A stretch of 64,000 nt of DNA from Thermococcaceae archaeon. GTDB lineage: Archaea; Methanobacteriota_B; Thermococci; Thermococcales; Thermococcaceae. The stretch spans positions 62,001-126,000 of the forward strand of contig JASGLT010000003.1 of assembly GCA_030156945.1 (NCBI GenBank), given 5' to 3'. Below the pieces are notes generated by a model that was not told where the DNA came from, did not search any database, and was given only the letters and a program-made list of their open reading frames with translations. This document shows, in pieces, positions 3,040-9,905 of this stretch (positions within the stretch are counted from its first letter, which is position 1; each line of letters begins with the position of its first letter). The position numbers were made by a program, and so were the translations under genes.

Positions 3040-3053
3040 GCGGGTGATTGAAA

Positions 3054-3860
3054 ATGAGAATGGTCGAAACTCAAGAGGAGAGGCCAGAGATAATGGAGAG
3101 ACTTCACAGGGTTGGGATAACCAACCTCCGGACTGTCGCCAAGATAAACTGGAAAGGGAGAGAGTACACCTTCCTGCCCGTGATAGAGGTCACGATAGAC
3201 GTGCCGGCGGAGAAGAAGGGCATTCATATGAGCAGACTCGTCGAGAGCATAACGGAAGCCATGAGTGAGGCCGTTGAGGAGGAAGTGGCAAAGGTTCACA
3301 GCTCCCTCGAGGAGCTTGGAAAGTGCGTCATAGAGAGGCTCGAAGGGAAGCATCCTCACAGACGTGCCGAGGTGTGGATAAAGACCCACCTCATCATTCC
3401 GAGGACAACCCCCGCAAGCGGAAGAACGAGTTACGAGCCCTACGATGTCGAAGTGGGGGTTATCAAGCACGAGGAAGGCTCTTTCGAGAAGGTTCTTCGG
3501 GTCAGGGTGATAGGAAACACTGCCTGCCCCCACGCTATGGCAAACAACAACGGCAAAACCCACATCCAGAGGGCTATCGGTGAGCTGGAGATAAGGGCTG
3601 GCTTTGATGAAGAGATTCCGCTTGAAGAGATGATAGAGGTCGTCGAAAGCTCTTTCAGTCATCCAACCTATACGCTCCTAAAAACGGTGGACGAGAACGC
3701 AGTCGTGCAGGGAATGTACAGGAATCCAAAGTTCGTCGAGGATGTGGCGAGGGAAATCTTTGCCAAGGCAAAGGAGCGCTTTAACGGGAAGATTCACGTG
3801 AGGGTCGTCAGCAATGAAAGCATCCACAAGCATGATGTGATAGCGGAGACGTGGAATTAG
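3054..3860 (+). CDS. mptA: GTP cyclohydrolase MptA (type IB/IV)
   Basis: 268-residue archaeal GTP cyclohydrolase of the FolE2/MptA family, converting GTP to a 7,8-dihydroneopterin cyclic phosphate, the first pterin intermediate. Family-typical stretches are [13 protein letters not shown] near the N-terminus, [23 protein letters not shown], and [13 protein letters not shown] with the metal-site cysteine and histidine. ATG 3054 was chosen over TTG 3048 because GGTGAT then stands at the right distance. It is 15 bp after rnhB. In Thermococcales the product feeds folate-like pterins and archaeosine synthesis; which one dominates cannot be told here. Confidence 0.93.
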
Positions 3861-4169: not shown

Positions 4170-4227
4170 AGTAATTCTTAAATAGTAGTTTGTGTCCACA
4201 TTAATCACCCGGAATGGCGTATCAATC

Positions 4228-4250
4228 GCCCCTCGGGCAGGAGGGTCGGC
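4228..4250 (+). repeat. Leader hairpin plus 16-bp direct repeat, left copy
   Basis: In the predicted leader of the secreted-protein gene, GCCC-CTC-GGGC (4228-4238) can form a small hairpin and is followed by AGGAGGGTCGGC. GGGCAGGAGGGTCGGC at 4235-4250 is repeated exactly at 8667-8682, where it again follows a GCCCC/GGGGC hairpin. The GGAGG within it also serves as ribosome-binding site for the ATG at 4254, at somewhat long spacing. Confidence 0.6.
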
Positions 4251-4253
4251 GCC

Positions 4254-4592
4254 ATGAAGAAGCTGGTTGCCGTCTTGTTCGGTCTCTTGGTAGTGGCGGC
4301 AGGGTTCGCGGCAGCAACTCAGTGGAGAGTTACCTCAGTGCGTGACTCCACGAGTGGAAAATACGGGTGGGCCTATGCAGAAGTCGGGGTCAAGTATGAT
4401 GTCCAGCATCCATACACCAACTACGAGATAACCTACAGGTATGGAGATGGTGACCTGATTAACAAGCTTGATCCATACTCTTATGGTGTCTACAAGTATC
4501 CAGACAGCACGGGAATCACCGTGAAGACAGTAGTCCTTGCTCCAGATGCCCCAGAGACCGTAGTGGCGTCTGCCCACTGGCCAGCACATTGA
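4254..4592 (+). CDS. Small secreted Tyr-rich protein of unknown function
   Basis: 112 residues. A clear Sec signal peptide (KK, then a hydrophobic core, then AAGFAAA) gives a predicted mature protein of about 91 residues beginning TQWRV. The mature part has no cysteine, about eleven tyrosines and a repeated aromatic beta-strand pattern (KYGWAYAEVGVKYD, YTNYEITYRYGDGD). I do not recognise the family with confidence. There is a faint resemblance in size, export signal and tyrosine/tryptophan-rich strands to lactococcin-972-type bacteriocins, which are also linked to ABC exporters, but this is speculation. It has its own TATA box and folded leader and precedes the exporter genes on the same strand. 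Confidence 0.75.
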   Translation: MKKLVAVLFGLLVVAAGFAAATQWRVTSVRDSTSGKYGWAYAEVGVKYDVQHPYTNYEITYRYGDGDLINKLDPYSYGVYKYPDSTGITVKTVVLAPDAPETVVASAHWPAH

Positions 4593-4636
4593 GAGTGCCG
4601 TCCTCTTTTTCTTTATGAACTATTGGAGGTGATGTC

Positions 4637-5668
4637 TTGAAGGGCAAAAACCTGAAATTACTTTTCATTCTTTTGATTGTACTAATTGGTTCATATCCAG
4701 TTGAAGCCACGCCATACTGGGTCAAACCGGGAGTTTATGTTAAGTACGCCGCATTAAGACACGAAAAAATTGCTCAAAAGTACAAATCAGGGGACGTGTT
4801 CCTCTCAACGGGTGATGTTATTCTTGAGACCAATGGAACTTATATCCAGATGTCTGCTCGGGGAGACACATATTTGACATTCACAATCATGGGCGATGAA
4901 GGAGACTACCTGCTCATGAATCTGAGTTTGGAAATGTTTAACGTAACAATAAAGCAGTTTGGAGACAAGACGGTTATATTATGGCCAAAATCTGATCTGA
5001 TCTCAAAGAAGAATCTTAACAACGAGACGTTATTCAACGTCACAGAGGCAAGATACTCGTGCACTTACAAGATTAGAAAGGAGGACGGCATGGTCTTTGA
5101 CACCACAGGCACAAACTACGGCCACACAATCCTCTGGGATGATCTAGGCAATGCCCCTATAATGGTTGATCACCCGTTTCAGCTTGTTGGCTTCGCAGGC
5201 AATTCCGTTTCAAAGGTGGTGAACGTTACTCCTCTGGACGTGACTGTAATCACTAAAACTTCCAATTTCAAGAAGCCAGTGATCTACGTCAGAACCGCGG
5301 GAGGTGGGAGTATACAGACCCCTGTTGGGGAGGTTTCGTTCTCAGGAACCGATGCAATCCTGTATTTCGATGGATCTACCGGCATGTTCGTTACGGGCTT
5401 TTTCCCAACAGCTCCTGACCTCGCGGCATGCAGAATTAAGATGGTATACTTTATGGATCAGTGGGGCATGTACATGAGTGAGAACCACAAAGAGAAAGGA
5501 AAGCTCTACACATATGGAATAGGGTTTTACGATACCAATGCGGAGTTTGGGGTCGCTGAGACGGCACAGTTTTCAAAACCAGAAACAAGCACTAAGTATC
5601 TATACATAGTACCTATAGCCTTTCTTGTGTTACTTGTCGTGTTCGCACTGTGGAGGAATAAGCGATGA
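4637..5668 (+). CDS. Secreted ectodomain protein with C-terminal anchor, paralog A
   Basis: 343 residues of unknown function. An N-terminal signal sequence is followed by PYWVKPGVYVKYAALR, a large extracytoplasmic domain with many NxT/NxS sites, and a C-terminal membrane span followed by RNKR, so the bulk lies outside the cell. The start is TTG at 4637, chosen because GGAGGTGAT stands at ideal spacing. It is clearly paralogous to the next gene: both have PYWVKPGVY near the N-terminus and an NYGHT/DYGHT plus DD.xNP block in the middle. Its stop overlaps the next start (ATGA). Confidence 0.8.
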   Translation: MKGKNLKLLFILLIVLIGSYPVEATPYWVKPGVYVKYAALRHEKIAQKYKSGDVFLSTGDVILETNGTYIQMSARGDTYLTFTIMGDEGDYLLMNLSLEMFNVTIKQFGDKTVILWPKSDLISKKNLNNETLFNVTEARYSCTYKIRKEDGMVFDTTGTNYGHTILWDDLGNAPIMVDHPFQLVGFAGNSVSKVVNVTPLDVTVITKTSNFKKPVIYVRTAGGGSIQTPVGEVSFSGTDAILYFDGSTGMFVTGFFPTAPDLAACRIKMVYFMDQWGMYMSENHKEKGKLYTYGIGFYDTNAEFGVAETAQFSKPETSTKYLYIVPIAFLVLLVVFALWRNKR

Positions 5669-6729
5669 AAGCATTTCCCGGCTTGGTGTTTATAATGTTT
5701 CTTTTTGTTTCTCCTGTATATGCACTACCGTACTGGGTCAAACCGGGAGTTTACATCGAGTACGCGGCCACAAGGTATGAGCCGTACATCCAGTACCGGC
5801 TTTCTCAGGGAGACAGGCCGGAGTGGATTCAAACCTCGCTGATGGTTTACAATTATTCAGGGGTTCTATACATACTGAGGACGTTCAACGACACGATTGT
5901 AGAGTTCCGCCTCAAAAAGGAGGGGGATTACATACGCTCAAACGTACAGGTAACCCTTTACAACGTCAGCATAAGCACGACCCTCCCAAAGGATATATCG
6001 CCACCCGTATTCTGGAACGAGTCAGAGGTAATAGAGACCGAGGTCGAAAACAGCCACTATTTGGGGTTTGAAGACTGGAAATGGTACCGATTCCATGTGA
6101 AGAAAGTTGTCATCAGTGGAGAGTACCTAATCCGCGTGAAGGATTACCATGTCATAAAGGGAAATGTGGACTACGGGCACACGATGCTTTTTGATGACCC
6201 TGCGAACCCGTTAAACAAGGGGGACAGCTTCAGCTTATACCCGATAAGCATAAAGATTCAAGACGCCAGAATTGACAATGAGAGAGTCCTAAAAGGAAGA
6301 TACACCCAGTTCTATCCTCCCACAAAAACCGTAGTGACAGAGGCCTATGCTCTCAACATCACCCAGCCGTTTGGGAAGGGCTACAACATCCTCTCAACTC
6401 TGATGGGGACACTAATATACACCTTCGACGCTTCTGACGGAAAACTCATCACCACTTACAACGATGGACCTGACCTATGGGCAGTCGGCATCTTGGACAC
6501 TCAGTTCACGGACGAATACGGCCAGTATAAGATGGAGGTCGAGCATGAAGAGTCATGCGCCGGTGGCCTCGTCCTTAAATCGTTCAAAATTGCTGGGGAA
6601 AATGCTGAAGAGGAAGTTTCATTCAACAGGCCAAGATCAAAAGCTGCCTATCTCTTTTACACTTCCCTCGCACTGCTGAGCTTAAGCCTCGTGCTAGATA
6701 TCAGGAGGGATGACAAGAGAAGGAGGTGA
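5665..6729 (+). CDS. Secreted ectodomain protein with C-terminal anchor, paralog B
   Basis: 354 residues, paralog of the preceding protein. It has a signal peptide (to about residue 20), then PYWVKPGVYIEYAATRYE, a long extracytoplasmic domain containing DYGHTMLFDDPANP, and a C-terminal hydrophobic span (about 331-350) followed by a basic tail RRDDKRRR. The topology matches paralog A: outside domain, single anchor. Translational coupling on both sides suggests that A and B function with the exporter, for example as peptide receptors, immunity proteins or chaperones. This role is inference from context only. Confidence 0.8.
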   Translation: MKAFPGLVFIMFLFVSPVYALPYWVKPGVYIEYAATRYEPYIQYRLSQGDRPEWIQTSLMVYNYSGVLYILRTFNDTIVEFRLKKEGDYIRSNVQVTLYNVSISTTLPKDISPPVFWNESEVIETEVENSHYLGFEDWKWYRFHVKKVVISGEYLIRVKDYHVIKGNVDYGHTMLFDDPANPLNKGDSFSLYPISIKIQDARIDNERVLKGRYTQFYPPTKTVVTEAYALNITQPFGKGYNILSTLMGTLIYTFDASDGKLITTYNDGPDLWAVGILDTQFTDEYGQYKMEVEHEESCAGGLVLKSFKIAGENAEEEVSFNRPRSKAAYLFYTSLALLSLSLVLDIRRDDKRRR

Positions 6730-6733
6730 TCGA

Positions 6734-7501
6734 ATGGGACGGCTCTACACCCTATTCCGCTGGGAAATGAACGACCTGATAAAAGTCGTTCTGCTGTTTT
6801 TTGGAATAATGCTTGTTGGAATGTCAATGAAACAGGAACTAATGGGGGTTAGCAATTCTATGGGATTCATCTCCGGAACGGATCTACAGCTCTTTGAAGC
6901 TTCCCAGGCCAGGAGAGTATCAACGTCCATTCAAGGCATGCTCAGTCTCGAAGACGTCTGGACCCTCGCAGGTTTTCTGATACTGTTGCTCGGCGCGCTG
7001 ACCTTCCGCTATGACCGTGACAGCGGCGTTGCAAAGTCTGTCTACGCCCTCCCGTACTCTAACGACGAAATATTCGGCATCAAGCTCATCTCGTTGTTAA
7101 TCTACGGGTTCCTGATGCTCCTTCTTCCCTTCGCTTACGTTGCCATAACAACCTACGCCAGCATAGCCGGCTACCTCCCAGAGATAACCTCAAGATTCCT
7201 CAGCGATGCACTGCTCCTCGTTGCTTTCCTCGTGCTCTACCTAATAGCGGCCGCCACTCTGGTTTCCCTTGCCTCTCCAAACGCCTTCCTCGCCTTCATG
7301 GCAGGGTTTGCAGTCATATACGCGCCCAAAATACTCGGAAACTCGAGCATGCCACCAGCGCTCTTCATAAACGCCTTAAACCGCTGTGGAAATACCGACT
7401 TCAATGTGTTCAAGGCCGCCTACCTTGAGTGGGGGATCGTCGTCCCAATAGTGCTCTTCCTCCTCTCGTGGGTTCTCATCAGAAGGAGGGATGTCGTATG
7501 A
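6734..7501 (+). CDS. ABC-2 type transporter permease
   Basis: 255-residue membrane protein with about six hydrophobic spans and the layout of ABC-2 permeases: one N-terminal span, a long external loop, then paired spans (SVYALPYSNDEIFGIKLIS is the typical coupling region). ATG 6734 has a perfect GGAGGTGAT site; the longer frame upstream overlaps paralog B and lacks one. It partners the ATPase at 7953. ABC-2 systems usually export peptides, polysaccharides or lipids. Its stop overlaps the next start. Confidence 0.85.
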   Translation: MGRLYTLFRWEMNDLIKVVLLFFGIMLVGMSMKQELMGVSNSMGFISGTDLQLFEASQARRVSTSIQGMLSLEDVWTLAGFLILLLGALTFRYDRDSGVAKSVYALPYSNDEIFGIKLISLLIYGFLMLLLPFAYVAITTYASIAGYLPEITSRFLSDALLLVAFLVLYLIAAATLVSLASPNAFLAFMAGFAVIYAPKILGNSSMPPALFINALNRCGNTDFNVFKAAYLEWGIVVPIVLFLLSWVLIRRRDVV

Positions 7502-7956
7502 GGTTCTGGGCGGCCCTCCTTGCGGCCATGCTGATGCTCACCGTCGGCTCACTATGGGTCTACAGCTCCTACGAGGACAGGATAGGCTCCGCTGGGCCGG
7601 CCTTCCTCACGACATCAAAGGAGGGAAACCGCACCGACATGAGCCAGGTTACGATCTACACTCCCACGAGTTCGCTTGTAAATGTCTCCTGCAACGGCAA
7701 CGGAATAGTTGAGGTCTACGACATCATCACAGGGAAGCTGGTGGACAGGCACACCGTCTACGGCCATGCGAGGTACCAGATCGTTCTTCCAAGGGAAGGG
7801 GACTACCTGGTCATCAACAACTACACCGACAAGGTTTCATGTTCATTCCGCTTCGTAAAAAACTATCCAACCAAGGAAGTCCAGAACGCCCTCTACGTTA
7901 GCGGATCAATTTTTGCGCTACTCCTTGCCCTTATCATCTGGAGGTGGGGGAAATGA
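7498..7956 (+). CDS. Small double-span membrane protein of the exporter operon
   Basis: 152 residues. There is a hydrophobic segment at the N-terminus (about 2-24), a middle domain rich in beta-type residues with NGNG and two cysteines (SCNGNG and SCSFRF) that could form a disulfide, and a second span near the C-terminus (about 128-148). The middle part is most likely extracytoplasmic. It overlaps both the permease stop (ATGA) and the ATPase start (ATGA), so it is probably an accessory subunit of the transporter. No family recognised. Confidence 0.75.
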   Translation: MRFWAALLAAMLMLTVGSLWVYSSYEDRIGSAGPAFLTTSKEGNRTDMSQVTIYTPTSSLVNVSCNGNGIVEVYDIITGKLVDRHTVYGHARYQIVLPREGDYLVINNYTDKVSCSFRFVKNYPTKEVQNALYVSGSIFALLLALIIWRWGK

Positions 7957-8738
7957 AGACCATAATAGAGGCCAGAGACCTTAAAAAGCACTTCAGGAGC
8001 ATCAAGGCCCTTGACGGGATTACCGTTGAGATTCCTGAAGGCGTAACGCTCATTCTCGGTCCCAACGGTGGCGGAAAGAGCACGTTCCTCAAGCTGGCCA
8101 CAGGCGTTTACAGGCCGACCTCAGGAGAAATCCTCGTGTTCGGAGAGAAACCGTGGAACAACAGGAGAGTTAAAGAGCGCTTCAGCGTTGCCTATGACCC
8201 GCCCGCGTTTCCGCAGTTCGTGACGGGAAGGGAGTGGCTGAAGTTCTTCGCAGAGAGCAGGGGAGTTGGGGAGGAGTCCATAATTAAAGCTGCAGAGCTC
8301 TTCGATGCAACCTCCTTCCTGGACAAGAGGATAAGCGAGTACTCGTCTGGGATGCTGAAGAGGATTTCACTCGCTCAGGCCTTTGTGGGGGAGCCAGAGC
8401 TGGTTTTTCTCGACGAGCCGCTGGCCAACATTGACTTCGACAGCATGGAGAAAGTCATCGAAGTCATCGAGGGCATGAAAGGCAAGAGAAGCTTCGTGAT
8501 AATCAGCCACATCTGGGAGCCATTGATGCCGGTAGTGGACTGGGTCGTCGTGATTGGGAACGGGAAGCTCGTGTTGAGCGGAAGGGCCGAAGAAGTGCAG
8601 GAAGATGTCGAGAGGCTGTTCAAGCCCCGCCTAACAAAAAAGGGTGGGGGGAAGAAGCCCCTCCAGGGGCAGGAGGGTCGGCAGGTTTCACGCGGAGGTG
8701 AACCCAGTGAAGTGGAATTCCCCCCACCCGCAGAGTAA
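7953..8738 (+). CDS. ABC transporter ATPase of the exporter operon
   Basis: 261-residue ATPase with Walker A GPNGGGKST (36-44), a degenerate signature YSSGMLKRISLAQA typical of ABC-2 export ATPases, Walker B LVFLDEPLANID, and the switch histidine in VIISHIWE. ATG 7953 follows GGTGGGGG and overlaps the previous stop. The last 30 or so residues (from GGGKKPLQGQ) look unlike any ABC C-terminus; they are rich in Gly, Pro and Glu and are encoded by a strongly folded DNA element. The natural stop may have been lost by recombination at the 16-bp repeat. Confidence 0.88.
   Translation: MKTIIEARDLKKHFRSIKALDGITVEIPEGVTLILGPNGGGKSTFLKLATGVYRPTSGEILVFGEKPWNNRRVKERFSVAYDPPAFPQFVTGREWLKFFAESRGVGEESIIKAAELFDATSFLDKRISEYSSGMLKRISLAQAFVGEPELVFLDEPLANIDFDSMEKVIEVIEGMKGKRSFVIISHIWEPLMPVVDWVVVIGNGKLVLSGRAEEVQEDVERLFKPRLTKKGGGKKPLQGQEGRQVSRGGEPSEVEFPPPAE
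8642..8729 (+). other. Strongly folded 88-nt element inside the ATPase 3' end (possible embedded RNA)
   Basis: GGGTGGGGGGAA at 8642-8653 is perfectly complementary to TTCCCCCCACCC at 8718-8729. Inside lie a perfect hairpin GCCCC-TCCA-GGGGC (8657-8670) and a second hairpin GGTT(T)CAC-GCGGAG-GTGAACC (8684-8704). Together they make a three-way junction with a single-stranded AGGAGGGTCGGC between the two inner hairpins. Such structure within a coding 3' end is unusual. It could be an RNA processing or termination element, a stand-alone RNA, or one end of an acquired segment. Confidence 0.5.
8667..8682 (+). repeat. 16-bp direct repeat, right copy
   Basis: GGGCAGGAGGGTCGGC is identical to 4235-4250 and sits in the same context, directly after a GCCC-type hairpin. 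The two copies bracket the whole exporter operon. No third copy was noticed in the window. Confidence 0.7.
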
Positions 8739-8792
8739 TCGGGGGAATAACTATTTAAACTTTTTCGGTGTTTTCCATCGAACGGTGGTATG

Positions 8793-9905
8793 ATGAAACT
8801 CGTTCACGACCCCCTCCATGGCTACATAGAGCTCGATGACTTCGCGGTGAGGCTCGTTGATACCCCCGAGTTCCAGAGGCTGAGGAGGATAACACAGCTT
8901 GGCTTTGCATTTTTGGCCTATCCCTCAGCAAGACACACCCGTTTCGAGCACTCACTTGGGACCTTTCACCTCGCGAAGCGGGTAAGGGGATACAATCCCG
9001 AAGTCGAGGAGGGGGTAGTCTATGCCGCCCTCCTTCACGACCTCGGCCATTATCCTTTCTCTCACACGCTCGAAGGCATATTTCCGAAGCACGAGGAAAA
9101 CACGGCCTGGATAATAAAACACGGAAGTGTCGGAGACGTTATCCGGGAGAGGTACTCAATCCCCGAGTTTTTGAACCTCCTAAAACATCCCGTTGTGAGC
9201 GGCGACATCGATGTGGACAGGATGGACTACCTTGTTAGGGACGCCTATTACACGGGGGCGGCTTACGGGGTTGTCGACCTTGAGAGGCTCCTAAGGAACC
9301 TGAAGTTCGACGGCAGGAGGTTAATCGTTGAAGAGAAAGGACTGATAGCGGCTCAAAACCTCCTCCTCGCGAGAGCTATGATGCATCCCACTGTTTATTT
9401 CCACCACACCGCAAAGATAGCTGAAGCCATGCTGAGAAAAGCCGTTGAGCTCGAGGGAATACTCCTTGAGGAAATACGAACTATGGACGAGATAGACCTC
9501 ATTTCAAAGCTCAGGAATAGCGAGAAACCTGAAGTAAGAGACCTCATAAAAGCCATAGACAGCAGAAATCTCTACAAAAGGGCTTACTGCTCAAAGGTGG
9601 AGCTCGAAGGGAAGATCCTCGATGAGATGAAGGGAGTCCTTGAAGATGAGTTCGGCCATCTCGCCATCCTTAACTACCCTCCCAAGCCCAAGTACGAGGA
9701 GAGGAACGCATTCGTCATGACCGGTGGGGAGCTTAGGAGGCTGAGTGATGTTTCACCCCTTGTAAAGTCCCTTGTGGAAATGAAGGACGTTCACTGGGAA
9801 TGGTGCGTTTATGCCAAGAAGGAGATAAAAGAGGAGGTAGGAGCATTTCTGAAAAGCTTTTTAGACCCTTACCGCAGCAATTATTCGGGCAAGGAGCGTG
9901 GGTGA
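8793..9905 (+). CDS. HD-domain phosphohydrolase (COG1078, dGTPase-like)
   Basis: 370-residue HD-superfamily enzyme. The N-terminal motifs RLRRITQLG and HTRFEHSLGT, the metal-binding HDLGHYPFSH, and DVDRMDYLVRDAYYTG place it in the COG1078/SAMHD1-like dNTP triphosphohydrolase group. The substrate is unknown. ATG 8793 is preferred over 8790 for spacing to GGTGG. TATA-like TATTTAAAC at about 8751-8759. A second homolog lies at 60156 in this window. The small gene at 9898 overlaps its last codons. Confidence 0.85.
   Translation: MKLVHDPLHGYIELDDFAVRLVDTPEFQRLRRITQLGFAFLAYPSARHTRFEHSLGTFHLAKRVRGYNPEVEEGVVYAALLHDLGHYPFSHTLEGIFPKHEENTAWIIKHGSVGDVIRERYSIPEFLNLLKHPVVSGDIDVDRMDYLVRDAYYTGAAYGVVDLERLLRNLKFDGRRLIVEEKGLIAAQNLLLARAMMHPTVYFHHTAKIAEAMLRKAVELEGILLEEIRTMDEIDLISKLRNSEKPEVRDLIKAIDSRNLYKRAYCSKVELEGKILDEMKGVLEDEFGHLAILNYPPKPKYEERNAFVMTGGELRRLSDVSPLVKSLVEMKDVHWEWCVYAKKEIKEEVGAFLKSFLDPYRSNYSGKERG

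Follow-up and report, generated by a model that had tools for sequence, protein, structure and literature searches.

A Thermococcus operon in which a small secreted protein and the product of the adjacent gene vary together: a possible effector and immunity module

The window analyzed here is a 64,000-nucleotide stretch of the genome of a Thermococcaceae archaeon (assembly GCA_030156945.1, contig JASGLT010000003.1, positions 62,001 to 126,000), and the subject of this study is a six-gene operon at positions 4254 to 8738 of that window. All six open reading frames are on the plus strand and were verified between mptA (3048-3860) and an HD-domain gene (8790-9905), which is followed by EF-2 downstream of the operon. 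The genes encode a small secreted protein (P1), two related membrane-anchored proteins (E1 and E2, members of what we call the E family), a permease, a small membrane protein (P5) and an ATP-binding cassette (ABC) ATPase. The features of the locus are listed below.

4177-4184, plus strand: TATA-like box cttaaata, a predicted promoter, found at the same place in relatives in an alignment of 17 upstream regions
4206-4250, plus strand: 5' leader with a potential hairpin and the left repeat at its end, kept in 22 loci
4235-4250, plus strand: left 16-bp direct repeat GGGCAGGAGGGTCGGC, 3 bp upstream of the P1 start
4254-4592, plus strand: P1, 112 amino acids, with a Sec signal; signal helix and six beta strands predicted; type I
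4637-5668, plus strand: E1, with a signal peptide, a beta-rich ectodomain and a C-terminal membrane anchor; clade B, the apparent cognate partner of type I P1
5665-6729, plus strand: E2, a paralog of E1 (27% identical); clade E, an extra partner gene whose matching P1 (type II) is in other genomes
6734-7501, plus strand: ABC-2-like permease, 255 amino acids, with a weak Pfam match below cut-off; present in all loci
7498-7956, plus strand: P5, small, with membrane spans at the N- and C-terminus and an outer domain; its linkage to the permease is constant
7953-8738, plus strand: ABC ATPase, whose C-terminal tail runs across the right repeat
8667-8682, plus strand: right 16-bp direct repeat GGGCAGGAGGGTCGGC, inside the ATPase tail

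Gene order and predicted proteins

The six genes proposed in the first-pass annotation of this DNA were all found as open reading frames. The order P1-E-permease-P5-ATPase, with one to four E genes, is kept in about 20 other Thermococcus genomes, mostly between mptA and the HD gene, and a chance arrangement is therefore excluded. The annotation had named missing linkage in other genomes as a reason to give up its proposal; the linkage proved to be conserved instead. It had also described ATGA overlaps joining the genes from 5665 on. These overlaps are present at 5665 (E1-E2), 7498 (permease-P5) and 7953 (P5-ATPase), but the E2-permease junction does not overlap, since the permease start favored by conservation, 6734, leaves a gap of 4 bp past the E2 stop. 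The start codon of E1 is TTG. Covariation in the leader hairpin was not above that of shuffles, and a comparison of the leader with Rfam gave no credible match to a riboswitch or known RNA.

P1 has 11 tyrosines in about 90 mature residues. Its signal peptide is nearly identical among all P1 proteins (MKKLVAVLFGLLVVAAGFAAAT) and its first half is conserved (YGWAYAEVGVKYDVQHPYTNYEITYR); the second half is variable, with insertions, variable strands at residues 76-108 and an ASAGWP-like end. The AlphaFold2 model of P1, consisting of the signal helix and six strands, had a mean predicted local distance difference test score (pLDDT) of 89.5, and that of E, a large beta ectodomain with a C-terminal membrane helix, had a pLDDT of 87. 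P1, E and P5 had no known-family match in Pfam, NCBIfam, PADLOC or the Protein Data Bank (PDB). Homology of the small protein to a known family, which the first-pass annotation had singled out as fatal to its proposal, was thus not found. The best weak Foldseek matches of P1 in the PDB, lmo2686/Zea (4k15, probability 0.90, E-value 0.16) and 3kny, were not significant and were not used, and a fold search of the PDB with E gave no match. Homology between P1 and the N-terminus of E was also tested, and the two are not homologous.

Matches to known families were limited to the ATPase and, at a weak level, the permease. The ATPase matched Pfam ABC_tran at 1e-20 and the permease matched ABC2_membrane_5 with an E-value of 0.0013, under the curated cut-off; with an ABC ATPase and an ABC-2 permease in one operon, the locus has the composition of an ABC-2 transporter. 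The best NCBIfam subfamily for the ATPase was TIGR03740, the lantibiotic protection ATPase, at 119.8 bits compared to a cut-off of 309.75, and the protein does not qualify as a member.

P1-E cassettes are exchanged on a conserved chassis

Distances between P1 proteins were found to follow those between the E1 proteins encoded beside them (r=0.825, permutation p=2e-4, 11 intact pairs). This result was repeated on seven loci fetched later (r=0.842, p=0.005), and the correlation over all 17 loci was 0.828. The permease was uncorrelated with either protein, both in the 11 pairs (P1-permease -0.10, E1-permease -0.11) and in the follow-up (-0.06 and 0.04, respectively), and it was rejected as a member of the exchanged cassette because it does not covary with P1 or E1. 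P5 distances track those of the permease (r=0.84), as do those of the last E of the operon (0.76), which does not track P1 (-0.13). Compared to the neighboring chromosomal HD gene, the permease showed some vertical signal (r=0.32, p=0.008) and P1 and E1 showed none.

The exchange is seen most directly in pairs of loci that have nearly the same permease. Between the window and genome G011 the permeases are 95% identical, with P1 at 51% and E1 at 29%. The corresponding values are 95%, 41% and 26% for G012 and G014, and 91%, 47% and 38% for G023 and G032. P1 and E also diverge more than the chassis overall (51% and 36% versus 73%). Since near-identical permeases accompany divergent P1 and E1 proteins, P1 and E1 together form a cassette that determines specificity and is exchanged while the chassis stays stable, and such cassettes have been exchanged between species. 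Judged by sequence covariation, the adjacent E is the cognate partner of P1; variants of the putative effector are matched to an adjacent partner gene, as in polymorphic toxin and bacteriocin systems.

A tree of the E proteins contained six well-supported clades and one further clade from locus L177, the first E of which is only 34% like the nearest clade and is intact on inspection. Clades and P1 types matched one to one (I-B, II-E, III-D, IV-A, V-C, VI-F and VII-G) with no exception in the new loci, one intact locus standing behind each of types V, VI and VII. Clade F was without a P1 in the first sample, and the later-fetched L184 has a P1 beside its clade F gene. The first-pass annotation had suggested that both ectodomain proteins recognize or protect against the small product. 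This is strongly supported for E1, whose covariation with P1 is independent of the rest of the operon. It is not supported for E2, a member of clade E, the P1 of which (type II) is located in other genomes. As E2 is an extra E, E1 and E2 probably differ in the P1 type for which each is specific.

For the extra E genes, the P1 that corresponds to their clade occurs in other genomes, so that these additional partner genes correspond to effectors of other strains; they look like orphan immunity genes. Duplicates of the same clade within an operon made up 1 of 26 pairs versus 5.1 expected (p=0.018), and that single case was the divergent L177 gene. P1 was truncated or stopped while E1 was intact in four genomes (G001, G007, G010 and G031), and E1 was likewise intact in G022, where P1 has a late stop, and in G003, where P1 is absent. 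By analogy, this combination of cognate and orphan E genes corresponds to what is seen for polymorphic toxins or bacteriocins and their immunity genes.

The E proteins are themselves mosaic. The second E of L043 (8440-9489) has a front like that of an E in L042 (7253-8308) and a rear like that of one in L046 (9400-10470), and recombination therefore also occurs inside E genes. A solitary E gene away from ABC units was seen in G007 (L037, 7679-8758) and is 92% identical to the operon E of that genome.

P1 was found at this locus only, and convincing matches were limited to the genus Thermococcus. When E2 was the query, 23 of 61 genomes proved to contain the E family, and every one of them belongs to the same genus. 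Of the 115 genomes of the class, 61 gave matches to a profile of all E types; these 61 belong to one family, and a single genome had as many as 12 matches. No P1 was found in viruses and no E on plasmids. Remoter operons elsewhere have the order E-permease-P5-ATPase without P1 (L047, 7016-9894; L048, 7057-12175; L049, 7179-10058; L050, 4024-6939). Those of L048, which has two tandem sets, and L049 adjoin apparent sugar-phosphate metabolism genes. In L050, a 138-amino-acid protein with a hydrophobic start is encoded directly upstream of the distant E gene (6975-7391, minus strand) and is possibly an unrelated secreted partner of that E. These distant paralogous operons without P1 point to an earlier function of the E-ABC unit.

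Two observations concern the surroundings of the operon. In L036 (10765-11031), L046 (10998-11273), L113, L118 and L119, a small RelE-like gene (MGFENRVLISRKALKEL...) separates mptA from the operon or the HD gene; accessory genes gather in this gap. In G011 (L031, G011:C1:275197-279721), the operon is about 7 kb from the HD gene, runs in the opposite direction and has a remnant of an HD-type promoter, and this region has therefore been rearranged.

Direct repeats and operon-free sites

The 16-bp direct repeats that bound the operon were absent from the first-pass annotation. A 15-mer of the repeat has only two copies in the whole genome with up to one mismatch allowed, and a genome search with two mismatches gave background only. 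Relatives hold the same pair, with common stretches of up to 25 bp. Genome G035, in which the genes are arranged P1-E-P1-E, has three copies, one ahead of each P1 and one at the end. The distant P1-less operons have no such repeats. The copies within a genome change together: both ends read GGGTTGGC in G007 and CCACCCGGGCAGGGGG in G003, and both have a one-base deletion in G089. Left-right mismatches numbered 15 over 22 genomes compared to a permuted mean of 34.9 (minimum 17 in 20,000 shuffles; p=5e-5), a concordance to which genome relatedness adds.

Three operon-less genomes (G013, G006 and G088) have the promoter and leader, a single exact repeat and then the 3' flank. Identical short end repeats are thus found together with exact single-copy empty sites, as for an excised element, and the operon-free state in these genomes differs by an exact exchange at the repeat. 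The type of 3' flank differs among the three, and each type flanks the right repeat in other, operon-bearing genomes. Because of these different flanks, the single-repeat sites are probably the result of three independent events, which are most simply explained as excisions. A pre-insertion site would look identical to an excision scar; loss is favored because the operon is broadly present and the G006 copy is decayed. Scarless absence, in which mptA is joined straight to the HD gene, is commoner and was seen in many other operon-less genomes.

Whatever P1 does, the repeats could be two copies of a regulatory DNA or RNA site for one factor, and operon-less genomes could be ordinary deletions at the longest repeat. 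We give this explanation slightly less than an even chance. It is in keeping with the ribosome-binding AGGAGG that the left repeat includes before P1, with the ability of short repeats to support deletion without any special enzyme, with the lack of a recombinase among the operon genes in Pfam and NCBIfam scans and with the lack of a scar in most operon-less genomes. It accounts less well for the right repeat, which has no gene start after it, and the covariation of the copies within genomes, including the deletion shared by both copies in G089, is explained at least equally well by recombination or conversion. Another possible explanation is that the operon is an excisable module for antagonism or self-recognition, in which P1-E cassettes are swapped and the whole is reversibly lost and regained at the 16-bp repeat through a host or plasmid recombinase. 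We consider this unlikely. The integrase IntpTN3 of Thermococcus nautili recombines segments down to 104 bp with low specificity (PMC5495485), and this minimal length is greater than that of the repeats described here.

Interpretation and comparison with known systems

We give about an even chance to the interpretation that this Thermococcus operon encodes a polymorphic secreted effector and its immunity, and resembles a bacteriocin (archaeocin) locus. By analogy, P1 most likely acts as an archaeocin-like antagonist to which E confers specific immunity, and the ABC unit would be a shared immunity pump. P1 would leave by the Sec pathway, fold outside as a small beta protein and act on other Thermococcus cells. 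The E encoded directly downstream would be anchored in the producer membrane and would bind or neutralize its own P1 type, as the covariation of the pair suggests. Extra E genes, given their observed pattern, may guard against the P1 types of relatives. The permease, P5 and ATPase would then form a shared ABC unit that is fed by the E proteins and clears bound P1 from the membrane, comparable to LanI and LanFEG. Of the earlier guess, the immunity-type membrane proteins were the better half.

Several observations weigh against an effector and immunity operon. Neither P1 nor E has a toxin motif or toxin-like fold in Pfam, NCBIfam or the PDB, searched by sequence and by fold. Members of the E superfamily are spread across the Thermococcales, often together with an ABC unit and no P1, so the original role of the superfamily was probably different. 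The draft assembly G024 is the sole reverse case, with P1 intact and frameshifts in both E genes. Correlations among related sequences can also be inflated; the controls on the same genomes were flat.

Other explanations of the operon were considered. In one of them, E1 is the receptor of P1, which would be a non-toxic signal of the kin or pheromone kind; the pairs would diversify like mating-type or quorum-sensing specificity, and the ABC unit would import or clear the signal. Cognate covariation and cassette exchange suit such ligand-receptor specificity equally well, but orphan immunity better explains the relics that keep only the receptor and the presence of several non-cognate E genes in a genome, and Pfam and NCBIfam scans found no cytoplasmic signaling domain or regulator in the operon; we regard a signal and receptor as improbable. 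P1 and E could instead be surface components diversified by viruses or vesicle fusion, whose covariation reflects a physical surface complex rather than antagonism. Both are secreted or surface-exposed, the E sequences are mosaic and recombining and both proteins are highly divergent compared to the chassis. Under this idea one would not expect extra E genes that are non-redundant and match the P1 types of other genomes, nor a frequent loss of P1 alone, and we think it slightly less credible still.

Finally, the first-pass annotation proposed a dedicated ABC exporter. The single operon that holds all the genes would agree with an ABC unit that exports or extracts P1 and with E proteins that serve as substrate adaptors. 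However, P1 carries its own Sec signal and the permease, P5 and ATPase genes ignore P1 type (r=-0.06 for the permease), which makes such a role very unlikely. ABC cores without P1 also exist (L047-L050), and the ABC unit is retained where P1 is broken.

To our knowledge, hardly any protein weapons or self-recognition systems have been described in hyperthermophilic archaea. If an effector and immunity function is true of this operon, it would represent an unrecognized archaeal system of weapon and immunity or of self-recognition. Its four proteins that are variable or small all fall outside described families. The P1-E pairing predicts the binding partner of each of seven P1 types in a form that can be tested directly, and the covarying 16-bp repeats and exact empty sites hint at an undescribed route of operon loss or exchange in Thermococcales. 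No published description of the operon was found in the open-access literature searched, which did not cover subscription papers.

In lantibiotic immunity, a peptide-specific membrane-anchored protein, LanI, acts with a shared ABC-2 unit, LanFEG. The operon is similar in having a peptide-specific anchored protein (as E appears to be) and a shared ABC-2 unit, and TIGR03740 is the best subfamily of its ATPase. It differs in that E, whose anchor is a C-terminal helix, has no match among immunity-protein families, and no lanthipeptide precursor or modification enzyme was seen near the operon. The lactococcin 972 family consists of Sec-exported small beta bacteriocins with ABC-type immunity. Here too, a small Sec-signal protein, predicted to be all-beta, is followed by membrane protein and ABC ATPase genes; however, P1 has no significant fold match, the membrane partners are of unrelated design and P1 had no match to this family in Pfam or NCBIfam at E-values up to 1. 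The orphan immunity arrays of polymorphic toxins and colicin-like systems share with the operon exchangeable pairs, extra immunity genes of foreign type and decay of the effector with immunity kept. In contrast to those systems, there is no large trafficking protein or recognizable toxin domain here, and the variable part of P1 lies within one small domain.

VARTIG modules are specific to Thermococcales, hypervariable, similar to polymorphic toxins and subject to interspecies recombination, and their function is unknown (Makarova et al. 2021, PMC8416519). They contain a large multi-immunoglobulin (Ig) protein upstream (arCOG07710, more than 500 amino acids), whereas the first gene here encodes 112 amino acids with no Ig-family match and a mature P1 of about 90 residues. 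The ABC unit and flanking 16-bp repeats also set the operon apart; the main text on VARTIG does not contain the term "ABC transporter". In both cases, a variable secreted or surface protein is followed by matched small membrane proteins, and the VARTIG module is the nearest published idea to the operon described here.
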